This document shows, piece by piece, positions 2,460 to 27,362 of a DNA stretch of 64,000 bases. Each line of letters opens with the position of its first letter. Position 1 is the stretch's first letter. The DNA lies in NCBI RefSeq assembly GCF_004168285.1, contig NZ_SEWF01000006.1, forward strand, positions 1 through 64,000. Direction: 5' to 3'. The notes beneath the pieces were generated by a model. It worked only from the letters and a program-made list of their open reading frames with translations, did not search any database and was not told where the DNA came from. The position numbers were made by a program, and so were the translations under genes. Origin of the DNA: Emticicia agri. GTDB lineage: Bacteria > Bacteroidota > Bacteroidia > Cytophagales > Spirosomataceae.

Positions 2460-2516
2460 CATAATTAACCCATAATATTGACTTAACATTTACTTAATAT
2501 TGGCGCAGTAGTTTTG
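2460..2516 (+). promoter_or_regulatory. Pho-box-like direct repeats plus -7 element
   Basis: Four consecutive 11-bp units occur at 2460 (CATAATTAACC), 2471 (CATAATATTGA), 2482 (CTTAACATTTA) and 2493 (CTTAATATTGG). They are followed by a perfect -7 element TAGTTTTG at 2509-2516. The CTTAACATT unit at 2482 starts 27 bp before the -7, the same spacing as upstream of the SusC gene. PhoB-type regulators bind 11-bp-spaced direct repeats, and no -33 TTG is present, which suits an activator-dependent promoter. Assignment to PhoB is inference. Confidence 0.6.
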
Positions 2517-2547
2517 CATCGTGAAAATTAAGACACGAAAAACCAAT

Positions 2548-5364
2548 ATGAACAAGATAAAAATTTCTACTACGCTATTTTTGCTATTTGCTACTTTTCT
2601 CACTTTTGCCCAGTCGGGTACTATTTGCGGAACAATTAAAGATGCTAAAACCAACGAAGATTTAATAGGTGCTACTGTTAAAGTTGATGGCACCGCTTTG
2701 GGTACAGTTACTGATGTAAACGGTTTCTTTTCGATTGCTAAGGTTCCGGCAGGTAAAGCAAAAATAGTGATTACTTATGTTTCTTATAAAGATAAAGTAA
2801 TTGCTGATGTAGCAGTTGTGGCAGATAATGTTACAGAAATCAATACATTCCTTGAAGAAGAAGGAGCAGTTTTACAGGAAGTAAAAGTAACGGCCAGCCG
2901 ATTGACAAACACTGAGGTATCGGTAATTTCAGAAATAAAAGCAGCCCAGATGGTGGTAAACGGTATTTCGGCACAACAGATTGCCAAATCTCTTGACCGT
3001 GATGCCGCACAGGTAGTAAAACGTGTACCAGGTATTACCATTGTAGGTGATAGATTTATCAACATCAGAGGTCTGAACTCACGTTATAATAATGTAATGT
3101 TGCACAATGCTTTTACGCCAAGTATGGAAACTGACGTAAAATCGTTCTCGTTTGATATTATCCCAAGTTCACAAATCGACAGAATGTTGATTTTCAAAAG
3201 CCCATCGGCTGAATTACCCGGCGAATTTGCCGGTGGTTTAGTAAAAATCTTCACCAAGAATATTCCTGATAGAAACTCTTTAGTAATCGATTACAGCACT
3301 TCTTACCGTAGTAATACTACTTTCGGCGATTTCTATCAGCCTAATCAGGGCAAAAACTACTGGACAGGCTTTAACAACGGTTATTACGATTTGCCTAAGT
3401 ATTTTCCGGCTAATATCAGCCAGATTGGCAACAATCCTGCAGCCTTAGAAACGGCAGGTCGGTCATTGAAAAACGAATGGATTGCCAATCAGGGTACTGC
3501 CACACCAGACCAGAGAATTGGTGTAACAGGTAACTACAGATTTAATATAGGTAATGTAAAAGCTGGTAATGTAACAGCTGTGAACTACTCAGATACCCGT
3601 ACTAATTTTGTGGTTGACCGTAACGACTTCAATGCCAATATCGACAATACTCAATCTCCGATTTATAATTTTAACGACCAGCAATATAGCCGCAATATCC
3701 GTGTGGGTATTATGCACAACTGGGCATTCCGTTTGAATGAGAATCATTCTATTGAATTTAAAAACCTATTCAACCAGTTAAGCAATTCAAACTATACCCG
3801 TCGTACAGGTCGTGCCATTGAGGCTAACTATAACCCTGATAACCACTCATTTAATCAGGTATATCGTGGGATTTACACCGGACAATTAACGGGTAAACAT
3901 ACCGTAGCTAAAGGTAAAACAACCATCGACTGGGTAGTTGGCTATAATAATTCTTACCGTGACCAACCTGACTACCGTCGTTATCGTTCAGATGTGGACC
4001 AAACCAGTGGTTCAAAAACTGTTTATATTCCGGTTGGTACAGCACAGGCTTTCTTCTTAGGGAGATGGTTCTCGAAAATGATAGAAAACGGTTATACCGG
4101 AGCAGTAAATGTAAGTCAGAAAATTACGCTTTCGAAAGAAAAAGAAACCGAAATGGAATTGAAAGCAGGGGTTTTCTATGAGAAAAAAGACCGTACTTTC
4201 GATGGTAGAAACTTAGGTTATGTACGTAGTTCTAACTTTAACGGAGAGCTTTTTACTGCCCCCATTAATGTTATCTTCAATAACATCAATAATACCAATG
4301 GTATCAGAATTGACGAGCAGACTAACCCTAATGACTCTTATACCGCAGGTAATAAATTATTAGCTTATTATGCAAACGCAAATATTCCGCTTACCAAAAA
4401 ACTGAATATTATCGGTGGGGTACGTGTAGAAGACAATACACAAAGCTTGCAAAGTGCCTTTATTGGTGGTGCTAAAGTATCAGTGAGAAATCCTGTGCTT
4501 AGTGTGCTTCCATCGGCTAACCTTTCTTACAACTTCTCTGAAAAAATGCTGGTAAGAGCTGCTTACGGACAAACCATCAACCGTCCTGAATTCAGAGAGT
4601 TAGCGCCTTTCTCTTTTTATGATTTCGATTTCAACGTAGTATATGAAGGTTATACAGGCTTAAAAATTTCAACTGTAAACAACTTTGATGCCCGTTGGGA
4701 GTTTTATCCGACACCATCTGAGGTGATTAGCGTAGCGGCCTTCCACAAAGATTTCAGAAATCCGATTGAGATTGAAGTAGAAGCAGGTAGTGGCTCATTA
4801 GGCGCAAAAACTTTCATTTATAACAATGCCAAAAGTGCCAGAAGTACAGGTATCGAATTAGAAATCAAGAAAGGTCTGGCAAGCATCACTTCATCAAAAC
4901 TGCTTGAAAGAGTAAGCGTATTGTTTAATACTACCTTACTGGTAAGTAAAGTAAAACTAAGAGATGGTTCGGTGGGTCAGTCAGACAATCGTCCGTTACA
5001 AGGACAGTCTCCATACATTGTGAATACAGGTATCAACTACAACGACCAGGACAGAGACTTTCAGGTGAATGTTCTTTACAATGTAATTGGTAAAAGAATC
5101 TTCGCCGTAGGTTTTGATGGCTACCCTGACCTTTATGAAATGCCAAGAAATGTACTTGACCTTACTTTCTCGAAAGGGGTAGGAAGAGATAACAGATTTG
5201 TAATCAAAGGCGGTGTGAACGACATTTTCAACCAGGCAGCTTTGATTTTACAGGATGGTAATCAGGATGGCAAATTCGACCGTAAGAAAGATGAAATCAT
5301 GCAGGAGTACAGACCGGGCAGATTATTCTCTATAGGTGTGAGCTACACTTTAAATGGCAAATAA
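2548..5364 (+). CDS. TonB-dependent outer-membrane receptor
   Basis: About 938 residues from ATG 2548 (MNKIKISTTLFLL signal peptide). An upstream GTG at 2521 is in frame but sits only ~4 bp after the -7 element and is unlikely. Residues ~25-110 are a carboxypeptidase-regulatory-like beta domain (GTIKDAKTNEDLIGATV). Residues ~125-235 are the TonB plug (RVPGITIVGDRFINIRGLN), and the rest is a beta-barrel ending in a typical short strand (FSIGVSYTLNGK). It imports an unidentified ligand using TonB energy. It is paired with the beta-helix lipoprotein 61 bp downstream and preceded by Pho-box-like repeats, suggesting a phosphorus-linked ligand. Confidence 0.9.
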   Translation: MNKIKISTTLFLLFATFLTFAQSGTICGTIKDAKTNEDLIGATVKVDGTALGTVTDVNGFFSIAKVPAGKAKIVITYVSYKDKVIADVAVVADNVTEINTFLEEEGAVLQEVKVTASRLTNTEVSVISEIKAAQMVVNGISAQQIAKSLDRDAAQVVKRVPGITIVGDRFINIRGLNSRYNNVMLHNAFTPSMETDVKSFSFDIIPSSQIDRMLIFKSPSAELPGEFAGGLVKIFTKNIPDRNSLVIDYSTSYRSNTTFGDFYQPNQGKNYWTGFNNGYYDLPKYFPANISQIGNNPAALETAGRSLKNEWIANQGTATPDQRIGVTGNYRFNIGNVKAGNVTAVNYSDTRTNFVVDRNDFNANIDNTQSPIYNFNDQQYSRNIRVGIMHNWAFRLNENHSIEFKNLFNQLSNSNYTRRTGRAIEANYNPDNHSFNQVYRGIYTGQLTGKHTVAKGKTTIDWVVGYNNSYRDQPDYRRYRSDVDQTSGSKTVYIPVGTAQAFFLGRWFSKMIENGYTGAVNVSQKITLSKEKETEMELKAGVFYEKKDRTFDGRNLGYVRSSNFNGELFTAPINVIFNNINNTNGIRIDEQTNPNDSYTAGNKLLAYYANANIPLTKKLNIIGGVRVEDNTQSLQSAFIGGAKVSVRNPVLSVLPSANLSYNFSEKMLVRAAYGQTINRPEFRELAPFSFYDFDFNVVYEGYTGLKISTVNNFDARWEFYPTPSEVISVAAFHKDFRNPIEIEVEAGSGSLGAKTFIYNNAKSARSTGIELEIKKGLASITSSKLLERVSVLFNTTLLVSKVKLRDGSVGQSDNRPLQGQSPYIVNTGINYNDQDRDFQVNVLYNVIGKRIFAVGFDGYPDLYEMPRNVLDLTFSKGVGRDNRFVIKGGVNDIFNQAALILQDGNQDGKFDRKKDEIMQEYRPGRLFSIGVSYTLNGK

Positions 5365-5425
5365 CAAACGAATCATAGAGTAAAATTAAACATTCACTGA
5401 GTTTACATTATAAACCCCAAAAATT

Positions 5426-7342: not shown

Positions 7343-7891
7343 ATGAAGAAAATTTTTGTATTATGTATTTGTCTGCTCACGCTATCATGCGAAAAAGACA
7401 AGTATGATGTAAATACCTATTTTGATAAAGCACAACAAGATTCTTTACTGACAAATATCATAACCTATATTTATCAAAAGGCTCCTCAGTCAAGCAATCA
7501 AACAAGATTCCAGCCACAATACCGGAATTTTTATGTAGGTGTTCTACCAAAATTCAGTATCCAGAATTATTACATCGCACCCGATAGTACACATTATTTT
7601 TTTGTGATTCGTCCGGTTGGTGGTCTGCCTTTTAAAAGGGGTGTAATAGGTCGATATAAATTAGGCAAAAACCTGATGCCGACTGATTTTGAAGAAGTGG
7701 TAAATACACCGCATCTCGACGAAAAAGTAGTGAAGGAACGAGGAAAGTTCTTGTTTAATGAACTGATTAAAAATGGCAATTTAGATAAGTATCTATCCAT
7801 GAAGCATTATGTTGAATGGCCTGATGCAAATCTAATTTATGATAAAAAACTGAATGAATGGGTAGCGCCCAGACCTGAATCCATACAATAA
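7343..7891 (+). CDS. Hypothetical lipoprotein
   Basis: 182 residues with a short lipoprotein signal (MKKIFVLCICLLTLSC, lipobox LTLSC). The mature part is rich in aromatic and basic residues (YRNFYVGVLPKF, HYFFVIRPVGGLPF). I do not recognise a family. It lies after a palindromic repeat and before a terminator, so it is probably a single-gene unit rather than part of the receptor operon. Confidence 0.75.
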   Translation: MKKIFVLCICLLTLSCEKDKYDVNTYFDKAQQDSLLTNIITYIYQKAPQSSNQTRFQPQYRNFYVGVLPKFSIQNYYIAPDSTHYFFVIRPVGGLPFKRGVIGRYKLGKNLMPTDFEEVVNTPHLDEKVVKERGKFLFNELIKNGNLDKYLSMKHYVEWPDANLIYDKKLNEWVAPRPESIQ

Positions 7892-9379: not shown

Positions 9380-9412
9380 TTTAATACTGGCATAACATTG
9401 AGTTTATATGGG
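9380..9412 (+). promoter_or_regulatory. Pho-box-like 11-bp direct repeats before DUF5690
   Basis: Three 11-bp units: TTTAATACTGG (9380), CATAACATTGA (9391) and GTTTATATGGG (9402). The first two are each one or two bases from units in the box at 2460-2503 (CTTAATATTGG and CATAATATTGA). No convincing -7 element is found at the expected position near 9418, so this is weaker than the others. Confidence 0.4.
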
Positions 9413-9449
9413 TTGCCGAAATTACAGGTTTAATAAATAGAGGCAACCT

Positions 9450-10745
9450 GTGAAGAAAATCCTTGAGAAATCTGAAGTATTATTGATAGTCTGGTGTATC
9501 ATAGCGGCTTTTGGTACCTACTTCTGTATGTATGCTTTCCGCAAGCCTTTCACTACTGGTTTGTATGAAAATTATGAACTGTGGGGCATAGGCTATAAAA
9601 GTATTCTGATTATCTCTCAGGTATTTGGTTATATGCTTTCCAAGATTATCGGGATAAAGGTGATAGCTGAATTGAAAGCCAAAAGCCGGATACTGTTGAT
9701 TATTGGTCTGATAGCCTTTGCCGAAGTGGCCTTGCTAGCCTTTGGTTTTGTGCCTTTTCCATACAATTTTGGTTTTCTGTTTTTGAATGGCTTGCCATTG
9801 GGTATGGTCTGGGGCGTGATTTTTAGTTTTTTAGAAGGACGCAAACTGACAGAGTTTTTGTCGTTAGGATTAAGCCTGAATCTGGTAATGACATCGGGGG
9901 TATTAAAAACCATTTATCTCTATTTGCAGGAAACTTATCATATCAGCGAGTTTCATTTGCCTTACGTAATCGGCCTCGTTTTTCTGCCTTTCTTTCTGTT
10001 TTTTGTCTGGATGCTGGCCCAGATACCGCCACCTAATGAAGAAGATACACGACTGAGAAACAAACGGACAGCTATGACTAATGCCGATAAAGACAGAATT
10101 ATCAGAGAATTTGGCATCGGTCTATTCTGCTTTATAGGAATGTATCTGCTGATGGCCACCATGCGTGATTTCAGAGATAATTTTGCGGTAGAAGTCTGGC
10201 GGGAAATTGACCCTCAATTCAGTAAAGTTATTTTTTCAGAAATAGAAACCACTATTGGTCTGGTAGTGGTAAGCCTGATTGCACTGATAGCTTTTATCCG
10301 TAATAACTTTTATTCATACCTTACCTTTTCGGGTATGATGATAATTGCTGTAATAGCTTGTGGAGGGAGTACATGGGCTTTTCAGCAGGAAATGATTTCA
10401 GCAAAATTGTGGATGCTGAGTTTAGGCATTGGTTTATTTCTGCCTTATTTGTTGATACAAACGGTTGTCTTTGAGCGCCTGATAGCCCTGTTCAAAGCCC
10501 AGGGAAATGTAGGATTTCTGGTTTATATCTGTGATTCGATAGGGTATTTAGGAAGTGTGTTGCTCTTGTTATACCGGGAGTTTTTCTTGAAGCAGATTTC
10601 TTTTCTGAATGTATTGATTACGTTCGGCTATATCATTTCAGGCGTTTGTCTGGTTTTACTGATTATACAACTCATATACTTTACCAACAAGCATCTGAAT
10701 GGACGTGTGTGGTGGAAAGCGGTGCCGAAGTCGGAGATGGTTTAG
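9450..10745 (+). CDS. DUF5690 family multi-pass membrane protein (MFS-like)
   Basis: 431 residues starting with GTG at 9450; no nearby in-frame ATG would keep the first helix (SEVLLIVWCIIAAFGTYFCMYAFRKPF). About twelve hydrophobic segments are visible with a central charged linker (~residues 185-215), the layout of a major-facilitator-type transporter. The matching Pfam family is DUF5690, function unknown. From memory, relatives sit beside the phosphonatase-like/FAD oxidase pair in other genomes; both genes lie 3-6 kb downstream here. Together with the Pho-like repeats upstream, this suggests an inner-membrane importer of a phosphonate or its product. That role is inference. Confidence 0.75.
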   Translation: MKKILEKSEVLLIVWCIIAAFGTYFCMYAFRKPFTTGLYENYELWGIGYKSILIISQVFGYMLSKIIGIKVIAELKAKSRILLIIGLIAFAEVALLAFGFVPFPYNFGFLFLNGLPLGMVWGVIFSFLEGRKLTEFLSLGLSLNLVMTSGVLKTIYLYLQETYHISEFHLPYVIGLVFLPFFLFFVWMLAQIPPPNEEDTRLRNKRTAMTNADKDRIIREFGIGLFCFIGMYLLMATMRDFRDNFAVEVWREIDPQFSKVIFSEIETTIGLVVVSLIALIAFIRNNFYSYLTFSGMMIIAVIACGGSTWAFQQEMISAKLWMLSLGIGLFLPYLLIQTVVFERLIALFKAQGNVGFLVYICDSIGYLGSVLLLLYREFFLKQISFLNVLITFGYIISGVCLVLLIIQLIYFTNKHLNGRVWWKAVPKSEMV

Positions 10746-13526: not shown

Positions 13527-14669
13527 TTACAACAAGCTATCAATCACATGTTCGGCATACCCGGCACTGGTAGTCATACCTTTGCCGCCGATACCCGTAC
13601 GGATATGAATATTCGGGCTGATGTCATGTTCATAAATCTCGTCGGGGTGTTGGGCATAGAAGCCTGCCCAGGCACGGGCAATTTTCCTGACCGGAAAACT
13701 CATGATACGTTCAGCCTCTTTCAGCATGAGGTCGTTGATATAGGTTTTCGTATCAAAACCTAATTCGTCGGTGCGTCCGACAGGTGCGTATTCGTGCGAG
13801 TCTCCAATGATAATAGAACCATCAATGGCCTGTTTGAACAGGATATGGACACCCCATTTTTTTAATTCAGCGTAATGGTCAGGTGTAGTGATATTTTTAA
13901 AAGAAGGGCATTGCTCAAAAGACTCATAACGGCGAATAGAAAGCCCGGTAAGAATATTCCCTTTGATTGATACATTGGTCATAGGTACAGTTTGCAACAT
14001 CTGCAATTTGCTCACTATCATGCCACTCTGGGCATATACCTCAGGGAAAAGCAGATTAAATACATAGCCGCTACAAATAATGGCTTTGTCGGCAGTGTAT
14101 TGAGTATTGCCACTTGTGGTAACAGTTACTTTGTCTGATGTTTCCACGCAGTCAATCACACTTGTATTGGTCAAGTAAGTAACTTGTAATTGCTCTTGCA
14201 GGTATTGTAGCAATTTATAGATAAGCAAGTTAGGCTCTACGCTTACCTCGTTAGGGTAGTAGATAGCCCCACGCGCATAATCTTCCTTGAGTTCAGGATA
14301 TAAATCGAGGCATTGTCTTTTAGAGAGCAGAATACAATCGTAACGTTGACTGTGGTGTATGTCATATAGTTCGTTAGCTAATTGCCATTCGGTTTCGTCA
14401 GAAGCAAAATAGACAGTGCCATTTTTTCTGACTGATATATCAAATTGTTGTTGGATTTCTTTGTAAATGTCAAGGCTTCTTCTGCCAAAGTCAAACCATT
14501 TTCCGGCTGAACCTGAGGGTACAGCCTGCCCGAAATTGCGAACAGTAGAACTGACCGGAAAATTGTCTTTTTCTATAATCAGGACTTTCTTGCCTTTTTT
14601 AGCGGCATGGTAAGCATGAAAAGCCCCCATAATACCACTACCCACTATAATAATATCGAAATTTTTCAT
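13527..14669 (-). CDS. FAD-dependent oxidoreductase, phosphonate-linked TIGR03364 type
   Basis: 380 residues, DAO/GlpO-type amine oxidase. The FAD-binding GSGIMG motif is at residues 10-15 and the ribose-binding acidic end of strand 2 (IIEKD) is near 33. VRNFGQAVPSGSAG and the C-terminal GIGGKGMTTSAGYAEHV complete the flavin site. This family was defined by its neighbourhood with phosphonatase-like hydrolases and is proposed to deaminate an aminophosphonate such as 2-aminoethylphosphonate or an N-methyl or hydroxy derivative. Here the start codon abuts the stop of the phosphonatase-like gene (no gap), so the two are co-translated. The aldehyde product would feed that hydrolase. Confidence 0.8.
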   Translation of the reverse strand: MKNFDIIIVGSGIMGAFHAYHAAKKGKKVLIIEKDNFPVSSTVRNFGQAVPSGSAGKWFDFGRRSLDIYKEIQQQFDISVRKNGTVYFASDETEWQLANELYDIHHSQRYDCILLSKRQCLDLYPELKEDYARGAIYYPNEVSVEPNLLIYKLLQYLQEQLQVTYLTNTSVIDCVETSDKVTVTTSGNTQYTADKAIICSGYVFNLLFPEVYAQSGMIVSKLQMLQTVPMTNVSIKGNILTGLSIRRYESFEQCPSFKNITTPDHYAELKKWGVHILFKQAIDGSIIIGDSHEYAPVGRTDELGFDTKTYINDLMLKEAERIMSFPVRKIARAWAGFYAQHPDEIYEHDISPNIHIRTGIGGKGMTTSAGYAEHVIDSLL

Positions 14670-15410
14670 TTATGCTTCACTAAGAACCCCTAATTTAATA
14701 ATAATGTCTTTTAAATCTTTCAGCGAATTTAATAAGCCATCATTACGCAGAATAGTTAATTGCTGGCGGGTATGTGTGCCATTTACTACTCCTAAAGACA
14801 AACGACACCCGGCTCTTACACCTGATTTTAAATCAGAAGGAGTATCACCGATGTTTATTACTTCGTAAGGGTCAGTAACACCCATCAGTTTCATGGCTTT
14901 CTGAATCATATAAGGCTCCGGGCGGCCTTTAGGTACTTCATCGCTGGCAATAGATAAATCTATGACGGACTTGCCTGATGTATTCACATAATTGTATTCT
15001 AACCCCGCAAGCCAGCCTAATTTTTCGAGAATAATATTAGTTACTACCCGATAGAAACCCGTAGTCAGGGCTATTTTGATATTATTTTTGCGCAAGAACT
15101 CAAATACTTCCAAACAACCCTCGGTGGGCAGTACCTCACTATTTCGGTAATGCTCTTCCAGAATCATACGGAAATAGTCGTAAGAATAAAGTACGTTTTC
15201 ATTATATTCAGGATGGTCTTTGCCTGATTTCTCTTCCCAGAGCATTCTGAAAACTTCTATTTTGGAATAGCCCTGTAAGGCCAGTATCCTTTCTTCTGAT
15301 ACATTCAAGCCTACATATTCGCAAGCTATTGCAAAACAGGTTTCAACTTCTTTTTTGTCCTGAACGGTAGTTCCAGCCATATCGAAAACAACTAATTTGA
15401 TTGGGTACAT
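14670..15410 (-). CDS. Phosphonatase-like HAD hydrolase (PhnX-related)
   Basis: 246 residues from Met 15410 (MYPIKLVVFDMAGTT). A longer reading to 15458 would start upstream of the predicted -7 element (15428-15435) and is rejected. The HAD motif I is DMAGT (Asp10), the phosphonatase variant. Lys50 in LQGYSKIEVFRML lies where the Schiff-base lysine of PhnX (Lys53 in Bacillus cereus) would fall. KGRPEP carries Arg in place of the usual HAD lysine, and INIGDTPSDLKSG is motif III. The expected reaction is C-P cleavage of phosphonoacetaldehyde or a close relative, releasing phosphate. It forms an operon with the FAD oxidase. Confidence 0.8.
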   Translation of the reverse strand: MYPIKLVVFDMAGTTVQDKKEVETCFAIACEYVGLNVSEERILALQGYSKIEVFRMLWEEKSGKDHPEYNENVLYSYDYFRMILEEHYRNSEVLPTEGCLEVFEFLRKNNIKIALTTGFYRVVTNIILEKLGWLAGLEYNYVNTSGKSVIDLSIASDEVPKGRPEPYMIQKAMKLMGVTDPYEVINIGDTPSDLKSGVRAGCRLSLGVVNGTHTRQQLTILRNDGLLNSLKDLKDIIIKLGVLSEA

Positions 15411-15427
15411 AAGGTGCTGTTTTTTGA

Positions 15428-15475
15428 CAAAAATAACTGACTTACTTTTATAAAACATATTATGTTTTTGTTAAG
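15428..15475 (-). promoter_or_regulatory. Promoter with Pho-box-like repeats for the phosphonatase operon
   Basis: On the minus strand CTTAACAAAAA (15475-15465) is followed directly by CATAATATGTT (15464-15454), two 11-bp units like those at 2460-2503. A -7 element TATTTTTG lies at 15435-15428, giving a leader of only ~15 nt before ATG 15410. The repeat-to-minus-7 spacing is 29 bp rather than the 27 bp seen elsewhere. Confidence 0.45.
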
Positions 15476-18061: not shown

Positions 18062-18118
18062 CTTAACAATAGCTTAATTAGGGCTTAACATTCAAGGAAT
18101 GTAAGAAATGTACTTTTG
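18062..18118 (+). promoter_or_regulatory. Pho-box-like direct repeats plus -7 element before SusC
   Basis: Three 11-bp units occur at 18062 (CTTAACAATAG), 18073 (CTTAATTAGGG) and 18084 (CTTAACATTCA). The -7 element TACTTTTG is at 18111-18118, 27 bp after the start of the last repeat. Downstream, GCATCCTGAAAAT matches the TonB receptor promoter (GCATCGTGAAAAT) at the same offset. The mRNA leader would be ~75 nt. Confidence 0.65.
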
Positions 18119-18198: not shown

Positions 18199-21100
18199 AT
18201 GAAAAAACAACTCCTATTATGCATGGTAGTTTTTCTGACGGGTCTGTTCATCAGTGAGGCAACTTATGCACAGACATCAGTAAGCGGGAAAATATCTTCT
18301 GCCAATGGTGAAGGTATTCCGGGTGTAAGCGTGTTAGTGAAAGGAAGCAATCATGGGACAAACTCAGATGCCAGTGGAAATTTCAGATTGAGCAATGTTA
18401 ATTCAAACACAGTTATCGTTTTTTCGGCCATCGGTTTCGTAACAGAAGAGCGTACCGTAGGTAACCAGACTACACTAAACGTAACACTAAACGAAGATAC
18501 CAAAACTTTGAACGAGGTAGTGGTTACGGCCTTGGGTATCAAAAAAGACATTCGCCGTATCGGGGTGGCTATCCAGTCAATTGATGGTGCTTCTACCGTT
18601 AAAGCACGTGAGCCTAATGCCATCAATGCGCTGGCAGGTAAAGTAGCAGGTTTGACCATTGGTGCACAACCTGAAATGTTGCGTAAACCAAACATTTCGT
18701 TACGTGGTAATACCGAGATATTATATGTTGTGGACGGTGTACCGATTAACTCAGATACCTGGAACATCAGCCCTGATGATATTGAGACTTATTCAGTATT
18801 GAAAGGTGCTTCTGCTTCGGCCTTATATGGTTTCCGTGGTAAAAACGGTGCGATTCTGATTACTACCAAACGTGGTTCGAAAGACAAACGTGGATTCTCG
18901 GTTGAGGTAAACTCTTCGACCATGTTAGATAAAGGATTTTATGCAATCCCTAAAACTCAGGATTTATATGGACCCGGCGATCACGGCCGTTATGCCTTTG
19001 TTGATGGTAAAGGTGGTGGATTGAACGATGGTGATTATGATGGTGGCTGGGGACCTAAATTTGAAGGCCAGTTGATACCTCAGTATGATAGCCCGGTTGA
19101 CCCTGTTACAGGTGTAAGACAAGGAACACCCTGGATTGCCCGTGGTAAAGATAACTTAGCCCGTTTCTTACAGGCTGGTATCCTTTCAACGAATAATATT
19201 GCGGTTTCTGCATCAGGAGAAAAATATAACTTACGTTTTTCTACTTCACAGATTTCGCAGCGTGGGATTGTGCCTAATACCAAACTCAACATCAGCAACT
19301 TTAATATAGCGGCTGATTATAAATTCTCTGACAGACTTTCGTTCACATCGAACTTACAGTATAACAGACAATATACACCGAATATTCCTGATATTAACTA
19401 CGGTCCTAACTCAATTATCTATAACATGACACTTTGGGCAGGTGCTGACTGGGATGTGGATGATATGCGTAACTACTGGCAACCGGGTAAAGAAGGTATC
19501 CAACAGATTTATGCTGAGTACCAACGTTACAATAACCCATATTTTATGAGTTATGAGTGGTTGAGAGGTCATCAGAAATCTGATATTATTGGTCAGGCCG
19601 CTTTAACCTATAAATTTACAGATTATTTAGAGGCAACGCTTCGTTCGCAGATTACTACCTGGAACTTGTTCCGTAGCGAAAAAATGCCTTATTCAGCAGG
19701 TTCTTATGGCCGTGATGAACGTCGTGGTGATTACCGTGAAGACCGCCGTAACCTGTTCGAAAACAACACCGACATCTTGCTTAAATTTGATAAAGACATT
19801 GTTAGAGGCTTAAACGCAAAAATCTGGGCAGGGGGTAATATCCGTACGTTTGAGTATAGCTCCCAATATGGGTCTACCGATTACCTGAATGTGCCTGGTT
19901 TATACAATTTCAGCAACTCAGCTAACCCTGTTCGTTCGGCTAACTTCAATTCGGCTATGCGTGTAAATTCAGGCTATTATTCTGCCGACTTTACAATCAA
20001 AAACTTCATCACCATCGGAACCACAGGCCGTGTAGATAAATTATCAACTTTACCATCAGGTAACAATACTTTCTTCTACCCATCGGTTTCTGCTTCAACG
20101 GTTTTATCTGATTACATCAATCTTCCGTCGGTAGTCTCTTTCTTCAAACTGAGAGGTTCGTATGCAAACGTTAAAGATGGTCTGACCCGTTCTACTATCG
20201 GTTCAACACCAAGTTTAGGCGATGGCAACCCGATAGGTTATGGCGAGCAGTACTATTCTCCGTATGATGGCCCTGCTTATAGCAACTCTGCGGTTTATTC
20301 TACGCCATTTGCTTATAATAACCAGCCATCGGCTTACTTTACAGGAACTTTAAACAACCCTGGTTTGAACCCAAGCTCAACTTCTCAAACTGAGGTTGGT
20401 CTTGATTTCAGAGTATTACAAAACCGTATTGGTTTAGATGTAACGTATTTTATATCGAACGAAGGACCAAGAATCTTCTCATTACCTATTTCTTCAACTA
20501 CAGGTTATACCGCAGCGCTTGTCAACGGTATCAAAACACAGAAAAAAGGTTGGGAAGTTGCCCTGACAGGCTCACCAATCAAAAATGCTGATGGATTGAA
20601 CTGGGATGTAACAGTCAACTACTCTACTTTCCAGGAGAGATTAACAGAGATTTATCCGGGTGTTGAGAGTCTGAATACATTCTTTAAAGTAGGCGACCGT
20701 TTAGATAAATTCTATGGTACTGCCTTTGCAAGAACACCAGACAGACAAATTATCAATGATGCTTCTGGTCGTCCGATTACTACACCAGTAGCACAATTCT
20801 TGGGGTATATCAATCCTAAATTTGTATTTGGTATCAATAACAGATTCAATTACAAAAACCTGAGCTTCAGCTTCCAGTTTGATGGTCGTATCGGTGGGGT
20901 AATCTCTAACTATATTCAGCGTCAGACCTACCGTGGTGGTCGTCATATAGGTACTACTGAAGGCGTAATGGGTGTTGCCCGTGAGCAGGACTACAAAGGT
21001 ATCAAAGCCTATGTAGGCGAAGGTGTACAGGTGTCTAATGGCGTACCGATCAGATTTGATGCCAATGGTATTATTACCAATTATGGCGAATTACAATATA

Positions 21101-21402
21101 AGACAAATGATACAAAACAATTTGTACAAGATTACGTAAGCCGTTATTATAATACTGATGATGGTAACCTGATGAGCCGCTCGTTTGCCATGTTGCGTGA
21201 AGTGGTAATTGGTTATTCATTGCCTGAAAGATGGTTTGGCGGTGTGGTAAGAAATGCTTCGGTATCTTTGGTAGGTAGAAATCTATTGTACTTTGCTGAA
21301 AAGAAAGACATTGATTTGAACCAATACATCAATGATGGTGGTTCAGGTCTGCAAACACCTTCGACCAGAAGATACGGTATCAACCTGAACTTCACTTTCT
21401 AA
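18199..21402 (+). CDS. SusC/RagA-type TonB-linked outer-membrane protein
   Basis: 1067 residues with a signal peptide (MKKQLLLCMVVFLTGLFISEATYAQ). Residues ~28-110 are the carboxypeptidase-regulatory-like domain (VSGKISSANGEGIPGVSVLVKG). The NEVVVTALGI TonB-box-like signature is at ~112, the plug at ~120-235, and the barrel follows, ending in RYGINLNFTF. It forms the transport half of a SusCD complex with the next gene (59-bp gap). The operon continues into a PhnZ oxygenase, unlike the glycan-degradation enzymes normally found there. The imported ligand is therefore probably phosphorus-bearing. This is inference. Confidence 0.9.
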   Translation: MKKQLLLCMVVFLTGLFISEATYAQTSVSGKISSANGEGIPGVSVLVKGSNHGTNSDASGNFRLSNVNSNTVIVFSAIGFVTEERTVGNQTTLNVTLNEDTKTLNEVVVTALGIKKDIRRIGVAIQSIDGASTVKAREPNAINALAGKVAGLTIGAQPEMLRKPNISLRGNTEILYVVDGVPINSDTWNISPDDIETYSVLKGASASALYGFRGKNGAILITTKRGSKDKRGFSVEVNSSTMLDKGFYAIPKTQDLYGPGDHGRYAFVDGKGGGLNDGDYDGGWGPKFEGQLIPQYDSPVDPVTGVRQGTPWIARGKDNLARFLQAGILSTNNIAVSASGEKYNLRFSTSQISQRGIVPNTKLNISNFNIAADYKFSDRLSFTSNLQYNRQYTPNIPDINYGPNSIIYNMTLWAGADWDVDDMRNYWQPGKEGIQQIYAEYQRYNNPYFMSYEWLRGHQKSDIIGQAALTYKFTDYLEATLRSQITTWNLFRSEKMPYSAGSYGRDERRGDYREDRRNLFENNTDILLKFDKDIVRGLNAKIWAGGNIRTFEYSSQYGSTDYLNVPGLYNFSNSANPVRSANFNSAMRVNSGYYSADFTIKNFITIGTTGRVDKLSTLPSGNNTFFYPSVSASTVLSDYINLPSVVSFFKLRGSYANVKDGLTRSTIGSTPSLGDGNPIGYGEQYYSPYDGPAYSNSAVYSTPFAYNNQPSAYFTGTLNNPGLNPSSTSQTEVGLDFRVLQNRIGLDVTYFISNEGPRIFSLPISSTTGYTAALVNGIKTQKKGWEVALTGSPIKNADGLNWDVTVNYSTFQERLTEIYPGVESLNTFFKVGDRLDKFYGTAFARTPDRQIINDASGRPITTPVAQFLGYINPKFVFGINNRFNYKNLSFSFQFDGRIGGVISNYIQRQTYRGGRHIGTTEGVMGVAREQDYKGIKAYVGEGVQVSNGVPIRFDANGIITNYGELQYKTNDTKQFVQDYVSRYYNTDDGNLMSRSFAMLREVVIGYSLPERWFGGVVRNASVSLVGRNLLYFAEKKDIDLNQYINDGGSGLQTPSTRRYGINLNFTF

Positions 21403-21461
21403 TTTCACTTATTGCTCTTTTGAGCCTTATTTCAACATCATTCAGATAAAAATATTTACAA

Positions 21462-23054
21462 ATGAAGATACATCAAATATTCGCAGGGGCTTTAGCAGTG
21501 TTAGCTGTTACCCTTAGCAGTTGCGAAAAATCGTTTGAAGACCTTGAAAAAGACCCCAACCGTCCGGTAAATGTGCCTGCTTCTTTGGTTTTGCAAGGCG
21601 TTGAAGCCGACTTAGCCAATAATACAGGTCGCCCTTTCAGTGCCGAAATGCGCTGGAATCAATTCTATGCATCAAACTATAACTATTATGCGACGAATGA
21701 ATATACCTGGACATCGACTCCGAACCACTACAATACGCTTAAAAACGTAGTGAAAATGGAAGAAGAGGCTAAACGTGCAGGTCTGGCAGAGGTAAACGGA
21801 TATACTGCGCTTGGTAAGTTTTTCCGTGCCTATTTCATCGACGAAATGTCAAAGCGTGTAGGTGACCTTCCGGTAACAGAGGCTTTGAAAGGTATTGAGA
21901 ACACCACTCCTAAATATGATACACAAAAAGCAGTATATGTACAGATTTTGAAATGGCTTGATGAGGCTAATGACAATTTGGCTTCTTTAATTGCACAGGG
22001 GCAGACTGTACAGGGTGATTTCTATTTTGGTGGCGACCTGCGTAAATGGCAGAAAGCAGTCAATGCTTTTAAACTGAGAGTATTGATTTCGTTGAGCAAA
22101 AAAGAAGCAGAGGGTGAGTTGAATGTAAAAGCCCGTTTTGCTGAAATTTTAGGTAATCCTACCAAATACCCTTTGTTTGCAGGTATGGAAGATAACCTGG
22201 AGTTTAAGTATAACAACTTTAACAAATATCCGTCTAACCCTGATAACTTTGGTTTTGATGCTACCCGTCAGAACATGGCGAAAACGTATGTAGGCTTGTT
22301 ATCAGGCTTGAACGACCCACGTGTAATGGTTACTACTGAGCCTGCAGGAGCAGAATTAAAAGCAGGTAAATTGCCGTCAGACTATACAGCTTATGTAGGG
22401 GCAAGTTCGGCAGAAGATTTGGCAGATATGAGTGATAAAGCCGGAAGAAACAACGGTGCAGGTTTTGCGCCGGGTGTATATTCGTTCCAGAATCGTTACC
22501 GTTATTACCGCAACTATACTGCCGAAAACACGTTTATTGTAGGTTACCCTGAAATGTGTTTCAACATTGCAGAAGGTTTGCACAGAGGCTGGGCAACAGG
22601 CGATGCAGAATCATGGTATAAAAAAGGTATTCAGGCATCAATTAGTTTCTACGGAATTGTAAACGGAACCAATACCATGACCTACTCAAGAACAGGGGGT
22701 AGAGAAGCAGCAGATTTATCAACCTTTACAATTAACTTTAATTTTGATACATACTATGCGCAGAATATGGTGAAATATGACGGTAAAACCACAACAGGTT
22801 TAGAACAGATTATCAGCCAGAAATATGCAGCATTTTTTATGAACTCGGGCATGGAAGCCTATTTCAACTGGAGACGTACGGGCTTTCCTAAATTTGAAAC
22901 AGGGGTAGGTAATGGTAACTCCAACCGTATCGCACTTCGTTGGCAATATCCGATTTCTGAACGCAATACGAACACCAAAAATTATAATGACGCTATCAAT
23001 AGCCAGTATGCCGGTAAAGACGACATTAACGATAGTGTCTGGATTATGAAATAG
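21462..23054 (+). CDS. SusD/RagB-family surface lipoprotein (SusD-like_2 type)
   Basis: 530 residues with lipoprotein signal MKIHQIFAGALAVLAVTLSSC (lipobox LSSC). The opening KSFEDLEKDPNRPVNVPAS is the hallmark of the SusD-like_2 group. TPR-type helices include LDEANDNLASLI and WQKAVNAFKLRVLISLSKK. Toward the end, QIISQKYAAFFMNSGMEAYFNWRRTGFPKF is the usual SusD C-terminal signature, followed by RWQYPISERNTN. It should sit as a lid on the SusC barrel and capture the ligand. No sign of truncation. Confidence 0.9.
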   Translation: MKIHQIFAGALAVLAVTLSSCEKSFEDLEKDPNRPVNVPASLVLQGVEADLANNTGRPFSAEMRWNQFYASNYNYYATNEYTWTSTPNHYNTLKNVVKMEEEAKRAGLAEVNGYTALGKFFRAYFIDEMSKRVGDLPVTEALKGIENTTPKYDTQKAVYVQILKWLDEANDNLASLIAQGQTVQGDFYFGGDLRKWQKAVNAFKLRVLISLSKKEAEGELNVKARFAEILGNPTKYPLFAGMEDNLEFKYNNFNKYPSNPDNFGFDATRQNMAKTYVGLLSGLNDPRVMVTTEPAGAELKAGKLPSDYTAYVGASSAEDLADMSDKAGRNNGAGFAPGVYSFQNRYRYYRNYTAENTFIVGYPEMCFNIAEGLHRGWATGDAESWYKKGIQASISFYGIVNGTNTMTYSRTGGREAADLSTFTINFNFDTYYAQNMVKYDGKTTTGLEQIISQKYAAFFMNSGMEAYFNWRRTGFPKFETGVGNGNSNRIALRWQYPISERNTNTKNYNDAINSQYAGKDDINDSVWIMK

Positions 23055-23137
23055 TTTTTGTACATCATAGGTAAGAGTTGAAAGTAGCGGAGCATTGTTC
23101 CGCTACTTTTTAATTCAAGCCTCCATAAGTTAGACCC

Positions 23138-23719
23138 ATGAAGCAAGTGAATCAGGTAATTGATGAAATTCGTGCCATTTTTCTGTCGCAAGGCGATGAG
23201 CAGTATTATGGCGAACCTGTCAGCCAGTTTGAACACGCCGCACAGTCAGCTATTCTGGCCGAGAAATCAGGCTTTGATGCAGAAGTGCAGATAGCTGCTT
23301 TTCTGCACGACATCGGGCATCTGTTGCCGGCGGCTTCAGAAGAAGAATTGATGGCAAATTACGGCAGAAAAGACCATGAAGGGGTAGCTGCTGACTGGCT
23401 CCGAGACAGAGGGTTTTCTGAAAAAATAGCCGTACTGGTAGAGAATCATGTAAATGCCAAACGTTACCTTTGCTATGCCAATCCGGCTTATTATAACCAT
23501 TTGTCTGATGCCAGTAAACAAACCCTTGCGTTTCAGGGAGGAAAAATGGAGCAGGTAGAAGTAGAGGCATTCGAAAAGAACCCTTATTTCGATCTTATTA
23601 TCAGAATGCGCAGATGGGACGAAGCCGCTAAAGTAGAACATCAGCAATTGCCTGATTTAGATTATTTTCTGAAAATCTGTGAAGATTATTTAGCCCATTC
23701 CATAAATGTCAGCGAATAG
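23138..23719 (+). CDS. phnZ: PhnZ-type HD-domain mixed-valent di-iron phosphonate oxygenase
   Basis: 193 residues, the size of PhnZ (~190). Metal ligands are visible at His33 (QFEHAAQSA), His57-Asp58 (FLHDIGH), His80 (KDHEG), His104 (VENHVNAKRY) and Asp161 (MRRWDEA). Tyr24, His61 and Lys108 occupy the positions recalled for the substrate pocket of PhnZ. The expected reaction is oxidative C-P cleavage of (R)-1-hydroxy-2-aminoethylphosphonate to glycine and phosphate. The partner hydroxylase PhnY is not in this window. It is the third gene of the SusCD operon (83-bp gap), and its last codons fall inside a palindromic repeat. Confidence 0.8.
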   Translation: MKQVNQVIDEIRAIFLSQGDEQYYGEPVSQFEHAAQSAILAEKSGFDAEVQIAAFLHDIGHLLPAASEEELMANYGRKDHEGVAADWLRDRGFSEKIAVLVENHVNAKRYLCYANPAYYNHLSDASKQTLAFQGGKMEQVEVEAFEKNPYFDLIIRMRRWDEAAKVEHQQLPDLDYFLKICEDYLAHSINVSE

Positions 23720-23857
23720 AAACGATCCGCCTTTGCGGTCGCTGCCTAAGATAACAAAGCGAACGTAGCATGGGTATTTTTTCTTTCTTAAACGGACTTA
23801 AGTCCGCGCTACTAAACTCATTCCTTTGTTTAATTAGACGGCGAATTCTATTCGCTG
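23711..23857. repeat. Palindromic repeat family E, containing the phnZ stop codon
   Basis: Outer arms CAGCGAATAGAA (23711-23722) and TTCTATTCGCTG (23846-23857) are perfect inverted repeats. Inside is the palindrome GGACTTAAGTCC with flanking GCGCTAC and GCGAACGTAGC. The phnZ stop (TAG) is supplied by the left arm. The element separates phnZ from the downstream hydrolase and may attenuate or process the transcript. Confidence 0.85.
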
Positions 23858-23919
23858 TTAAGTTGATATTAGTTAATCATTTTCTCCTCGCACAAAATCA
23901 TAAAAAACATCTATCTACT

Positions 23920-24987
23920 ATGAAAAAAATACTTGTATTGCTTTTATTAGTTATTGAGACCTTTGCCCAGCAAAAAACGGAGAACGTATTTATTATTACG
24001 ACCGACGGTTTTCGCTGGCAGGAAGTTTTTGGTGGCATGGACTCGGCTCTGTTAAATAAAAAAGAGTTTGTCAGAAACAAAGACCGTTTGAAAACTACAT
24101 TCGGTTCAGATAATTTAGAAGAGAGAAGAAAGAAATTGCTGCCTTTTTTCTGGAATACCATTGCCAGAGAAGGACAGTTGTATGGGAATCGTTGGCATAA
24201 TAATAAGGTAAATGTCATGAACCCTTACTGGTTCTCATATCCGGGGTATAATGAAATTCTGACCGGATACGCTGATGATAAAGTGAATTCTAATGACAAA
24301 AAACAAAATGAGAATATTACGGTATTAGAGTTTCTGAACCAACAAAAAGGCTTAAAAGGAAAAGTAGCAGCCTACGCAACCTGGGATTGTTTTCCATACA
24401 TTATTAACGAGCAACGCAGTGGTATTACGGTTAATTCGGGTAAAGAATTAGTAGAAGGCAAAACGACTGATAAAGAGGAGATGTTAAACGAAATCCAGTC
24501 AAATTATCCGAGTTTAGCCAGCGACCGCCACGATTTTGTTACCTATTACTTAGCAAAGGAATATATCAAGAAAAACGACCCTAAAGTATTCTTTTTGTCG
24601 TTTGATGAAACCGATGAATTTGCCCATGAAGCCAAATATGACGAATATCTTTTTGCGGCCAATACAGTAGATAAATTCATTGGCGACTTATGGAAGTATT
24701 GCCAGAGCAACCCGAAATATAAAGATAAAACAACGTTTATTATTACTACCGACCACGGTAGAGGTGATAAGAATAAGTCTCAATGGACAAGCCACGGGCA
24801 AAAAGTGTCCGATTGTTACCAAATATGGTTTGCAGTCATTGGCCCGGACACTCCTGCCTTGGGTGAAATCAAAACAGAAGGACAGTTATTCCAGAATCAG
24901 ATAGCGAAAACAGCCGCTAAATTCTTGGGCTTTGATTTCCAGAACGGAAAAGAGATTGGTAAAGAAATATCTACGGTGATGAAGTAA
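23920..24987 (+). CDS. Alkaline-phosphatase-superfamily phosphodiesterase/phosphohydrolase
   Basis: 355 residues from ATG 23920 (MKKILVLLLLVIETFAQQ signal peptide). An in-frame extension to 23770 runs through the palindromic repeat and is rejected. Metal-binding motifs of the superfamily are visible: IITTDGFRWQEVF, FLSFDETDEFAHEAKYDEY, IITTDHGRG and TSHGQKVSD. EILTGYADD resembles the segment that follows the nucleophile, but the nucleophile Ser/Thr itself is not clear. It should hydrolyse a phosphate or phosphonate ester in the periplasm. It lies downstream of SusC-SusD-phnZ, probably releasing substrate for that system. Confidence 0.75.
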   Translation: MKKILVLLLLVIETFAQQKTENVFIITTDGFRWQEVFGGMDSALLNKKEFVRNKDRLKTTFGSDNLEERRKKLLPFFWNTIAREGQLYGNRWHNNKVNVMNPYWFSYPGYNEILTGYADDKVNSNDKKQNENITVLEFLNQQKGLKGKVAAYATWDCFPYIINEQRSGITVNSGKELVEGKTTDKEEMLNEIQSNYPSLASDRHDFVTYYLAKEYIKKNDPKVFFLSFDETDEFAHEAKYDEYLFAANTVDKFIGDLWKYCQSNPKYKDKTTFIITTDHGRGDKNKSQWTSHGQKVSDCYQIWFAVIGPDTPALGEIKTEGQLFQNQIAKTAAKFLGFDFQNGKEIGKEISTVMK

Positions 24988-24989
24988 TT

Positions 24990-25142: not shown

Positions 25143-25150
25143 ATCAAAAA

Positions 25151-25288: not shown

Positions 25289-26467
25289 TTAGCTTCTGGT
25301 TGAAGGCGAAACAAGAGACAAGGCCAGGCGTTTAACCAATTGTGGTAAAACCTCAAGGCGACGGAAGGTACGGCGTTCAGGTATATTAAACAAACTTTCT
25401 ATTTCTCTTAAAAAGATAAAACTGCTACGGCTATGCCATGCCTTAAATTCTGCGCTGATATCTTTATGCGAAGGCAGATAGTTCATAAAGGCGGTTAAGT
25501 CAAAACTTGTTGCGCTGATGCCTGCACCTGCTCTACTGGCATCTATGGCATTACAGGCTTGCTCGTAATGCTTGGGTACTGGGATCATAAACGTAGGCTT
25601 TCCTAAATACATGGCTTCACATACCGACTCAAAACCTGCGGTAGTAACTAACCCCCGGCAATTCTGCATCATTTCCAGAAACTTTTTGCCATTGATTTTA
25701 TGAAAATGAAGATTAGGCGAATACTGGTAAGTGTCGCTGTAGTCAGGGTTATCCCAGAAGCAGTGCATTTCTACACCAGGATTTTTATCGTGCCACGCCA
25801 TTATCTGCTCGGCTAATGAATGTTGCGTTACATAAGCGAGCAGATAATTATGAGCATTGGTACTTAAACGTGACAAATCTGACCGAAGCAAGGGTGGAAT
25901 GGCAAAGATTCTCTGGTTTTTAGCGTCAGCAAATGGGGTAAAGGAGAGTGCTAGTTTTTTGGCTGCACCTAAAGCTGTAATACGGGTATTGGTATTGACT
26001 AATAGTTTGTCTAACCAATGATTTTTTGGGTGGTGAAAATTGGGATGAAGCAATAAATATTGGTGTGCAATACAAACCATTGGTACTTTAGAACGGAACA
26101 ATAACTGATGGATTCCGCCTAAAACATCATAAAAATTAATAATTATGTCAGGCTTCAGTTCTTTTGTATGAAGTCGAATCTTTTTAAGACTGCTCAAATA
26201 GCCTCGCAGGTTAAAAATTGTATGCGTAATGGTTTTGGTTATATCTAATGCCTTGGTTTTTGGGCAATAAGCCAGATAGGGGCTTGCAAATGGAATAATC
26301 TTGTTTCTGAAGTTTTCTGAGAAAAAAGAAGAAACATCTTTCCCATGAGCAGTACCTACCAAAGCACCCACTACTGTATGACCATTGTTTTCCAATATTT
26401 CGGTTAGTGCAATGGCCTGAGTCAGATGCCCTCTGCCTTCTCCTTGTACAATTAACAAAAACCTCAT
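25289..26467 (-). CDS. GT-B glycosyltransferase (MGDG-synthase/GT28-like), probable glycolipid synthase
   Basis: 392 residues, no signal peptide. It opens with MRFLLIVQGEGRGHLTQAIALTEIL, the glycine/histidine loop of GT28/MurG-type enzymes. A second Rossmann half includes GLVTTAGFESVCEAMYLGKPTFMIPV, the sugar-nucleotide-binding signature, with EQACNAIDASRAGAG following. It overlaps the upstream phosphoesterase gene by 4 bp (translational coupling). In phosphorus-starved bacteria, PlcP makes diacylglycerol and the adjacent glycosyltransferase (Agt) makes glycolipid. The arrangement here fits that pathway, but the exact sugar and acceptor are not shown. Confidence 0.75.
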   Translation of the reverse strand: MRFLLIVQGEGRGHLTQAIALTEILENNGHTVVGALVGTAHGKDVSSFFSENFRNKIIPFASPYLAYCPKTKALDITKTITHTIFNLRGYLSSLKKIRLHTKELKPDIIINFYDVLGGIHQLLFRSKVPMVCIAHQYLLLHPNFHHPKNHWLDKLLVNTNTRITALGAAKKLALSFTPFADAKNQRIFAIPPLLRSDLSRLSTNAHNYLLAYVTQHSLAEQIMAWHDKNPGVEMHCFWDNPDYSDTYQYSPNLHFHKINGKKFLEMMQNCRGLVTTAGFESVCEAMYLGKPTFMIPVPKHYEQACNAIDASRAGAGISATSFDLTAFMNYLPSHKDISAEFKAWHSRSSFIFLREIESLFNIPERRTFRRLEVLPQLVKRLALSLVSPSTRS

Positions 26468-27300
26468 AGTGTAGCTGCTATTCTTGGTAAAACAAACCTT
26501 TCTTCTTTCATAGCTTCAACTTCTTCTTCCTCCGATTCTTCTTCAGCTTTGCAATCGCTTACCGAATAATAGACCAGACTCCAGTTGCCATCAAAATCTT
26601 CCACCAATGCCGACATTGTTTCTACCCAGTCGCCCGAATTAAGGTATAAAATCCCATCTATGGTTCTGATGGCAGGCTGATGAATATGCCCGCAGATAAT
26701 ACCATCGCAGTTTTTTGCTTTGGCCAGTTCGGCTAATTTTTCTTCAAAATCTGTTACATAGTTCACCGCCAGTTTTACGGCCTGCTTTACCTGCTGCGAT
26801 AGCGAGTAATAGGGTAATCCTCTCCATTCACGGTATTTGTTGTAATTTTTGTTCAGCCACAGTAAAAAAGTATAGCCCAGGTCGCCTAAATGCGCCAGCC
26901 ATTTCATATTAGTAGTAACACTATCGAACACATCGCCATGTGTTATATAGAATCGTTTGTCGCCCGATTTAAGGATATAGTCTCTGCGTATCTGAAATTG
27001 TTTGCCAATAACCAAAGGCAGAATCTGGTCGAGAAAATCGTCATGATTTCCACGCAGATATATCACTTTGGTATCATGTTTATCCATCTTTTTCAGCACA
27101 ACTCTGAAAAAAGCTGTATGCTTTTTCTTCCAGTTTCCGTATTTTTTTAGTTGCCAGCCATCAATTATATCTCCGTTAAGGATGAGTCTTTCGCAGTGGT
27201 ATTGTTTGAGAAACTCTGTTACCTCTTTCGCTTTACAACCACTTGTACCCAAGTGTAAGTCAGAAAGCACTATTGTCCGAAAATGTTTGCCTTTATTCAT
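26464..27300 (-). CDS. plcP: PlcP-like calcineurin-type metallophosphoesterase
   Basis: 278 residues, cytoplasmic. Metal motifs in order: LSDLHLG (~13-19), GDIIDGW (~43-49), GNHDDF (~84-89), HGDVFD (~114-119) and GHIHQP (~201-206). The pattern is shared by LpxH-type UDP-diacylglucosamine hydrolases. SLSQQVKQAVKLAVNYVTDFEEKLA and LNSGDWVETMSALVED agree best with PlcP, the phospholipase C used to remodel membranes under phosphorus limitation. LpxH remains the alternative. The coupled glycosyltransferase and the Pho-like box upstream favour PlcP. The tail has an acidic EEESEEEEVEA run. Confidence 0.7.
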   Translation of the reverse strand: MNKGKHFRTIVLSDLHLGTSGCKAKEVTEFLKQYHCERLILNGDIIDGWQLKKYGNWKKKHTAFFRVVLKKMDKHDTKVIYLRGNHDDFLDQILPLVIGKQFQIRRDYILKSGDKRFYITHGDVFDSVTTNMKWLAHLGDLGYTFLLWLNKNYNKYREWRGLPYYSLSQQVKQAVKLAVNYVTDFEEKLAELAKAKNCDGIICGHIHQPAIRTIDGILYLNSGDWVETMSALVEDFDGNWSLVYYSVSDCKAEEESEEEEVEAMKEERFVLPRIAATL

Positions 27301-27305
27301 ATAGA

Positions 27306-27362
27306 CAAATTTGAGAAACTATTATAAATTGTTGATTAAGAGGATATTACCAAAATGTAAAG
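27306..27362 (-). promoter_or_regulatory. Pho-box-like repeats and -7-like element before plcP
   Basis: Minus-strand 11-bp units: CTTTACATTTT (27362-27352), GGTAATATCCT (27351-27341) and CTTAATCAACA (27340-27330). A -7-like CAAATTTG (27313-27306; one mismatch to TAnnTTTG) starts 27 bp after the last unit, as in the SusC and TonB-receptor promoters. The leader to ATG 27300 is only a few bases, so a leaderless or near-leaderless mRNA is implied. Confidence 0.45.

Follow-up and report, generated by a model that had tools for sequence, protein, structure and literature searches.

Direct repeats of 11 bp as predicted Pho boxes ahead of phosphorus-scavenging genes in Emticicia

Background

Pho-box units in Escherichia coli replace the -35 hexamer. 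They are direct repeats of 11 base pairs (bp) with the sequence CTGTCAT, and are the sites of PhoB (PMC4415409, PMC1906773). The cyanobacterial Pho box, that of SphR, is built from an 8-bp unit, CTTAACCT, and a 3-bp linker in at least three tandem copies (PMC1906773). For Bacteroidetes the promoter sequence TAnnTTTG has been described (PMC6414381), and in this phylum the motif obtained for Riemerella anatipestifer PhoP by DNA affinity purification sequencing is TTTAACA (PMC9603813). Bacteroides fragilis has a PhoB-dependent phosphate/sulphate permease (PMC3547664) that is probably PiT-like, and in Flavobacterium johnsoniae phosphate depletion induces PlcP (pf12850), a pf04101 glycosyltransferase, SusCD-like (PusCD) systems and TonB receptors (PMC8115612). 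Here we analyse arrays of 11-bp direct repeats in a 64,000-nucleotide stretch (called the window below; contig NZ_SEWF01000006.1) of the 6.65-Mb genome of Emticicia (Cytophagales). We are confident in predicting that these arrays are Pho boxes, bound by this bacterium's PhoB and switched on at low phosphate. Their place ahead of phosphorus-scavenging genes, and in relatives ahead of genes for phosphate sensors and phosphate transporters, makes it very probable that they turn on the phosphate-starvation response.

Results and discussion

Repeat arrays and their register to the -7 element

A preliminary description of the window had reported arrays 1 to 5 below, all of which were re-found where it had placed them; array 6 had been missed. 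The arrays and the -7 elements that follow them are:

2460..2503, plus strand: predicted Pho-box array 1, four 11-bp units CATAATTAACC/CATAATATTGA/CTTAACATTTA/CTTAATATTGG
2509..2516, plus strand: -7 element TAGTTTTG of array 1, unit starts 16, 27, 38 and 49 bp upstream
9380..9412, plus strand: predicted Pho-box array 2 (weak), three units TTTAATACTGG/CATAACATTGA/GTTTATATGGG
9418..9425, plus strand: degenerate -7 octamer GAAATTAC of array 2, 16/27/38 bp from the units
15475..15454, minus strand: predicted Pho-box array 3, two units CTTAACAAAAA/CATAATATGTT
15435..15428, minus strand: possible -7 element TATTTTTG of array 3, 29/40 bp from the units rather than 27/38
18062..18094, plus strand: predicted Pho-box array 4, three units CTTAACAATAG/CTTAATTAGGG/CTTAACATTCA
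18111..18118, plus strand: -7 element TACTTTTG of array 4, units 27, 38 and 49 bp upstream
27362..27330, minus strand: predicted Pho-box array 5, CTTTACATTTT/GGTAATATCCT/CTTAATCAACA, with a degenerate fourth unit next to it at 27329-27319
27313..27306, minus strand: -7 element CAAATTTG of array 5, units 16, 27, 38 and 49 bp upstream
27718..27675, minus strand: predicted Pho-box array 6, CTTAGCAGTTT/CTTAATATTAC/GGCAATAGTAA/GTTTACATCTT
27669..27662, minus strand: -7 element GACCTTTG of array 6, units 16, 27, 38 and 49 bp upstream

At the three strong promoters a unit had been said to start exactly 27 bp before the -7 element, and it does (2482 to 2509, 18084 to 18111 and, on the minus strand, 27340 to 27313). 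When 66 unit-to-element distances were tried on these promoters, the four with the best mean were 27, 49, 38 and 16 bp. Phase-scoring of the 945 NNNNTTTG octamers in the window gave as winners 18111 (26.6), 2509 (25.9), 27669 on the minus strand (13.3) and 27313 on the minus strand (12.9); the fifth-best octamer scored only 4.3. With the register shifted by -5 to +5 bp no score exceeded 8.9, a value that belongs to the promoter of a HAD hydrolase gene (15435, minus strand, shift 2). Like a Pho box, the arrays hold a fixed position just upstream of a core promoter element.

Is this more than AT-rich sequence? The window was scanned with a seven-position matrix built from the promoters of PiT phosphate transporters outside Emticicia (38 units; 19 of 20 loci used, L350 being omitted because it fell below threshold). 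At period 11 the best two-unit matches start at 2482, 15475 (minus), 2471, 27718 (minus), 18073, 18062 and 9380, and the best three-unit matches at 18062, 2471, 2460, 2482, 9380, 17572, 27718 (minus) and 27362 (minus). The top scores were 20.4 for two units and 26.7 for three, against 16.3 and 15.8 at best for periods 8, 9, 10, 12, 13 and 14; lower two-unit entries (14.4-15.3) were equalled at other periods. In 40 first-order Markov windows, a control run for three units only, the maximum was 19.2. Arrays 1 and 4 (26.0 and 26.7 with three units) lie above every control, and array 3 (15475, minus; 17.3 with two units) exceeds the other periods. Random matching of AT-rich DNA, which the preliminary description had named as a sign against its proposal, was seen neither in the scan with the outside matrix nor in the register scan.

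Spacing and neighbours across 98 genomes

The pattern CTTAACA, 0-20 bases, CTTAACA was sought in 98 genomes, Emticicia's own included. It occurs at 120 places, of which 50 have a gap of 4 (period 11) and 70 are spread over the other 20 gaps with at most 7 each; at least three of these (L266, L268, L269) represent array 4 at twice the period, its 22-bp harmonic. None of the 50 exact period-11 pairs falls in the own genome. The repeats are thus tandem and direct with an 11-bp period, as in a Pho box. No on-period site lies inside a gene when genes are taken as start-codon open reading frames (ORFs) over 120 amino acids; with stop-to-stop frames of at least 120 codons, 3 of the 50 lie inside one, versus 10 of the 21 off-period places examined. 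Measured from the second unit of the on-period sites, TAnnTTTG is found at 27 bp in 8, 16 bp in 3, 28 bp in 1, 29 bp in 2 and 38 bp in 1, the expectation from its density further downstream being about 0.014 per distance.

Which genes follow these sites? Their neighbours were clustered by BLAST and one member of each larger cluster was scanned with Pfam. PiT accounts for 11 of the 50, phoB for 3 and plcP for 1; relatives of window genes follow others (TonB receptor 3, SusC 3, a 586-residue protein 3), and 5 precede a separate cluster of TonB receptors.

Arrays before phoB and PiT

The genome's best match to PhoB is encoded at C70:14695-15360, minus strand. As befits a PhoB, it consists of a receiver and a winged-helix domain, matches PhoB models best and adjoins a histidine kinase; its scores lie below the curated cut-offs (TIGR02154, 223.8 of 296.2; NF053854, 213.3 of 270). 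It is 98% identical to its homologue in Emticicia sp. BO119. When it is aligned to the E. coli protein (37% identity), both show the recognition-helix pattern RTxDVHIR, residues that presumably touch DNA, with the next R changed to K. An alignment did not find this pattern in the window's other OmpR-type regulator (30541). DNA-contact residues are conserved in SphR as well (PMC1906773). On the phoB strand, the pair TTTAACATTGACTTAACA lies at C70:15425-15442, within a match to a pair plus -7 pattern (15396-15441). By eye, this stretch is kept in 11 of 32 Bacteroidota phoB loci (L110-L117, L125, L138, L141) and similar pairs occur in L128 and L132; in Spirosoma and some Cyclobacteriaceae the box is on the opposite strand, and other loci have no clear box. 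A scan of viral contigs found no PhoB relatives.

PiT is present in the own genome, with the two-unit array GTTTACAATTTCTTAACA upstream. Thirty PiT loci were fetched and 29 scored, the own one included (L334 was dropped because no start was found); 27 score above 10, the failures being L335 and L350. Of the 28 loci other than the own, 26 pass; the matrix had been trained on 19 of these 28, and 7 of the remaining 9 pass. Among nine Emticicia PiT promoters, all outside the training set, eight score 15.1-20.5 and the ninth fails. TAnnTTTG follows at 27 bp in 9 of the 27 promoters with an array, at 28 bp in 1 and at 29 bp in 4. Arrays therefore precede phosphate-acquisition genes and phoB itself, as Pho boxes do, and the Pho-regulon reading of the preliminary description gains support from their place before PiT and before the best PhoB homologue, where the array is kept in Emticicia kin.

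Alongside PhoB the genome has a PhoR-like kinase. PhoU was not found in the own genome (PstS, PhoX and PhoD were not searched for), nor was PstB at E 1e-60, with 38 of 83 own candidates scored; PstB is present in 7 of 58 genomes. In L348, PiT is followed by an ORF (2982-4301) of porin-like appearance, judged by eye, without a Pfam match. In the 5' leaders of Emticicia PiT and TonB-receptor genes a ACACCAATAT-like stretch recurs, by eye, ahead of the start codon.

Genes downstream of the window arrays

2548..5364, plus strand: TonB-dependent receptor, first gene of unit 1; gene order the same in congeners
9450..10745, plus strand: DUF5690 gene, downstream of array 2
14670..15410, minus strand: phosphonatase-like HAD hydrolase (TIGR03351, PhnX-like, below cut-off)
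13527..14669, minus strand: flavin adenine dinucleotide-dependent oxidoreductase HpnW (TIGR03364, over cut-off)
18199-21402 and 21462-23054, plus strand: SusC and SusD, first genes of the stretch 18199..24987 after array 4
23138-23719, plus strand: PhnZ-type Phn-HD oxygenase (TIGR03276, over cut-off)
23770-24987, plus strand: type I phosphodiesterase-like gene, last of the stretch 18199..24987
26464..27300, minus strand: PlcP-like calcineurin-type phosphoesterase (PF12850)
25289..26467, minus strand: glycosyltransferase of the plcP operon (PF13528, PF04101)
27450..27641, minus strand: acidic 63-residue ORF just upstream of plcP, no Pfam match

PhnZ next to SusCD, as first described, stands. 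For PlcP with a glycosyltransferase the families PF12850 and PF04101 hold good; the name PlcP is without backing from a curated model, since the protein matches general phosphoesterase models only, below cut-off. The phosphonatase-like gene does have an array. Its listed start (15458) falls within the box, and the true start is probably the in-frame ATG at 15410 (MYPIKLVVFD), which places array 3 upstream of the gene. The ORFs at 5426-7186 and 7343-7891, after the TonB receptor, have no Pfam match. The plcP ATG comes 5 bases past the -7 octamer (27300-27313, minus strand), so close that the plcP transcript may have almost no leader.

Conservation of the window promoters

The island around the arrays is largely syntenic among congeners, and the arrays are conserved while their flanks diverge (judged by eye, except for the DUF5690 array, which was scored). 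Array 1 is kept in all six congener loci compared. Array 2 is kept in the scored loci L272-L276 and L278, with the octamer 38 bp past the first unit and weak third units; L277 is similar by eye and L279 has a different stretch. At array 3, CTTAACAAAAACATAAT is kept in L272-L274, and L225, L227-L230 and L275 have CTTAACA with other in-phase neighbours. For array 4 (SusC-PhnZ), 20 loci were compared: three units are present in 8 congeners, CTTMAYA-like units in other genera (L233, L235, L236, L237, L239), two units in L234 and none that is clear in L240; L226, L238 and L241 lack a SusC match and L231 and L232 have wrong starts. Array 5 is kept in 10 of 10 congeners (L081-L090) and in L091, L101 and L106, the arrays being looser or absent in the remainder of the 30 plcP loci. 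Array 6 is recognisable in L081-L083. The stretch GCATCnTGAAAAT, reported as common to the first two promoters after the -7 element, is indeed there but only partly kept in kin, and we gave it no weight.

Patterns in the own genome

In the own genome the pair plus -7 pattern is the only one to be found more often than its control (10 matches versus 1). The match at C7:6149 looks perfect (27 bp) and was rejected because it lies inside an aminopeptidase gene; matches of this pattern or of the three-unit pattern before thioredoxin-like, TetR, peptidase and chorismate synthase genes, among others, were set aside as having no phosphorus link. Pairs with one mismatch number 10: they precede the array-1 TonB receptor, phoB, a SusC/SusD pair (C35), a TonB receptor (C51), a nuclease and ribonucleotide reductase, one is intragenic, and three have no link or family. 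The C35 site (G000:C35:30069-30086, minus strand; loci L395, L410) has three units 27/38/49 bp from TACTTTTG, ahead of the SusC/SusD pair, which is probably a further member of the regulon. Of the 64 pairs with two mismatches, 13 were inspected, picked by look, and 2 of these lie inside genes.

Two genes, one for a ribonucleotide reductase large subunit and one for an E1-type dehydrogenase, have CTTAACA-like pairs upstream in the own genome (G000:C16:47506, C1:273468) and again in another genus (L294 of G026, L293 of G029).

Weighing the interpretations

Several observations weigh against reading the arrays as PhoB boxes. The register is missed by 1 bp in the phoB array (28/39) and by 2 bp in the HAD array. 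Arrays 2 and 5 (9380, 14.5 with three units; 27362, 12.9) fail the chance controls taken alone, so that the case for them is made by conservation and register. A strict TAnnTTTG is missing downstream of the array in 13 of the 27 PiT promoters that have one. For 21 of the 50 exact sites the neighbour cannot clearly be tied to phosphorus; genes with no evident role of this kind that follow exact sites include BipA, ribonucleotide reductase, E1 dehydrogenase and MutS-like ones. The 50 sites are not independent, forming about 24 groups once related neighbours are merged. Total counts show no enrichment either. Over the 98 genomes, all spacings summed, the reversed pattern occurs at 326 places versus 120, unevenly (0 to 16 per strand); as a different word it makes, in our judgement, a poor control. 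In the own genome, pairs with up to two mismatches number 74 versus 102 for the reversed control, and the three-unit pattern 15 versus 13, a count that is uninformative alone in one genome. At least one of the 10 pair plus -7 matches is inside a gene, and others lack a phosphorus link. With no enrichment in total counts, what carries the argument is the spacing, the register, the conservation and the gene context. Those checks of the preliminary description that were carried out nonetheless favour its reading, through the arrays at phoB and PiT and the scan with the outside matrix; phoA has only a weak pair in reverse orientation, and own-genome counts do not rise above the reversed control.

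Those counts are what would favour regarding the repeats as fortuitous in AT-rich DNA, or as something common to strong promoters in general. Given the sharp 11-bp peak over 98 genomes, the register to the -7 element, the conservation amid diverging flanks, the gene context and the concentration of off-period rather than on-period pairs in open frames, this explanation is scarcely credible. Might the arrays instead serve another regulator of the OmpR/PhoB family, such as that of the pair 30541-32609 or another near-full-length homologue, answering a different cue, with the phosphorus genes incidental? Eleven proteins of this genome match nearly the whole PhoB model, and OmpR-family relatives of PhoB also bind direct repeats of 10-11 bp, which likewise tells against too firm an assignment to PhoB. 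Moreover, the Riemerella authors set their PhoP motif beside that of ArcA (PMC9603813). We nevertheless consider such a regulator improbable: an array precedes phoB itself, and PiT in many genera, while the 30541 regulator lacks RTxDVHIR and has, as its nearest listed upstream octamer, one with a negative score (30479). A milder possibility is that PhoB binds the boxes and that some of them, such as those at plcP and DUF5690, only fine-tune or even repress, so that not every unit would be induced at low phosphate. Units that score weakly, at 9380 and 27362, and the degenerate -7 octamers lend this some plausibility. These arrays share the 16/27/38/49 register with the strong promoters, and phosphate starvation induces plcP in Dokdonia (PMC4796936) and Flavobacterium (PMC8115612), which makes it rather unlikely.

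Proposed mechanism and meaning

Taking the arrays as Pho boxes, we propose that each 11-bp unit, made up of CTTAACA and four variable bases, would be the site of one DNA-binding domain of the PhoB encoded on contig C70, head to tail. Units lie 16, 27, 38 or 49 bp upstream of the -7 element, which is TAnnTTTG or a weaker form. With this spacing phosphorylated PhoB would overlie the -33 element, take over its role and bring in RNA polymerase, the layout of a class II activator. Genes switched on at low phosphate would then serve uptake across the outer membrane (TonB receptors, SusCD), the breakdown of phosphonates (PhnZ, PhnX-like/HpnW) and the remodelling of lipids (PlcP and the glycosyltransferase); the PiT phosphate transporter would be induced as well, and so would phoB itself.

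A wider reading, which in our view has an even chance of being right, is that the Cytophagales, and perhaps all Bacteroidota, use one Pho box, CTTAACA-N4 phased 16/27/38/49 bp from TAnnTTTG, in a regulon mostly without Pst-PhoU, in which PhoB would control PiT, TonB/SusCD uptake of organophosphorus and possibly nrdA. Lacking that sensor complex, PhoR would have to sense phosphate by another route, which can now be approached in genomes that, like this one, yielded no PstB and no PhoU. The arrays supply a rule of unit sequence, period and register with which phosphate-starvation genes can be scanned for in a phylum important in organic phosphorus turnover, and they indicate how an OmpR-family activator would sit on the unusual Bacteroidota promoter. 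The acidic 63-residue ORF, DUF5690 and the C35 SusCD pair become candidate phosphorus-starvation genes.

Comparison with known systems

Pho boxes are a known kind of element. In the papers listed by our literature searches, which leave absence unproven, we saw no description of a Bacteroidota Pho box, of this sequence or of its register to TAnnTTTG; the nearest is the Riemerella PhoP motif TTTAACA. That motif agrees with the present one in phylum, core and PhoP/PhoB-type regulator; it differs in that its authors liken it to ArcA and the main text does not use the term direct repeat (PMC9603813). The Pi-depletion regulon of F. johnsoniae matches the window in its PF12850 phosphoesterase and PF04101 glycosyltransferase and in having SusCD-like systems and TonB receptors, whereas the main text of that report does not use the terms pho box, motif or promoter (PMC8115612). 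The plcP operon of the window agrees with plcP-glycosyltransferase operons described elsewhere (PMC4796936).

Compared with the E. coli PhoB box (PMC4415409, PMC1906773), the Emticicia units are likewise 11 bp long, head to tail and directly upstream of the core promoter, but have a TAAC core in place of GTCA and a -7 in place of a -10 element; the systems also differ in that PhoU and PstB were not found in the Emticicia genome (38 of 83 own PstB candidates scored). The cyanobacterial SphR box (PMC1906773) belongs to another phylum and promoter class, whereas the Emticicia arrays are in register with the Bacteroidota -7 element TAnnTTTG; in its near-identical unit sequence, its 11-bp tandem period and its regulator family, it resembles them.

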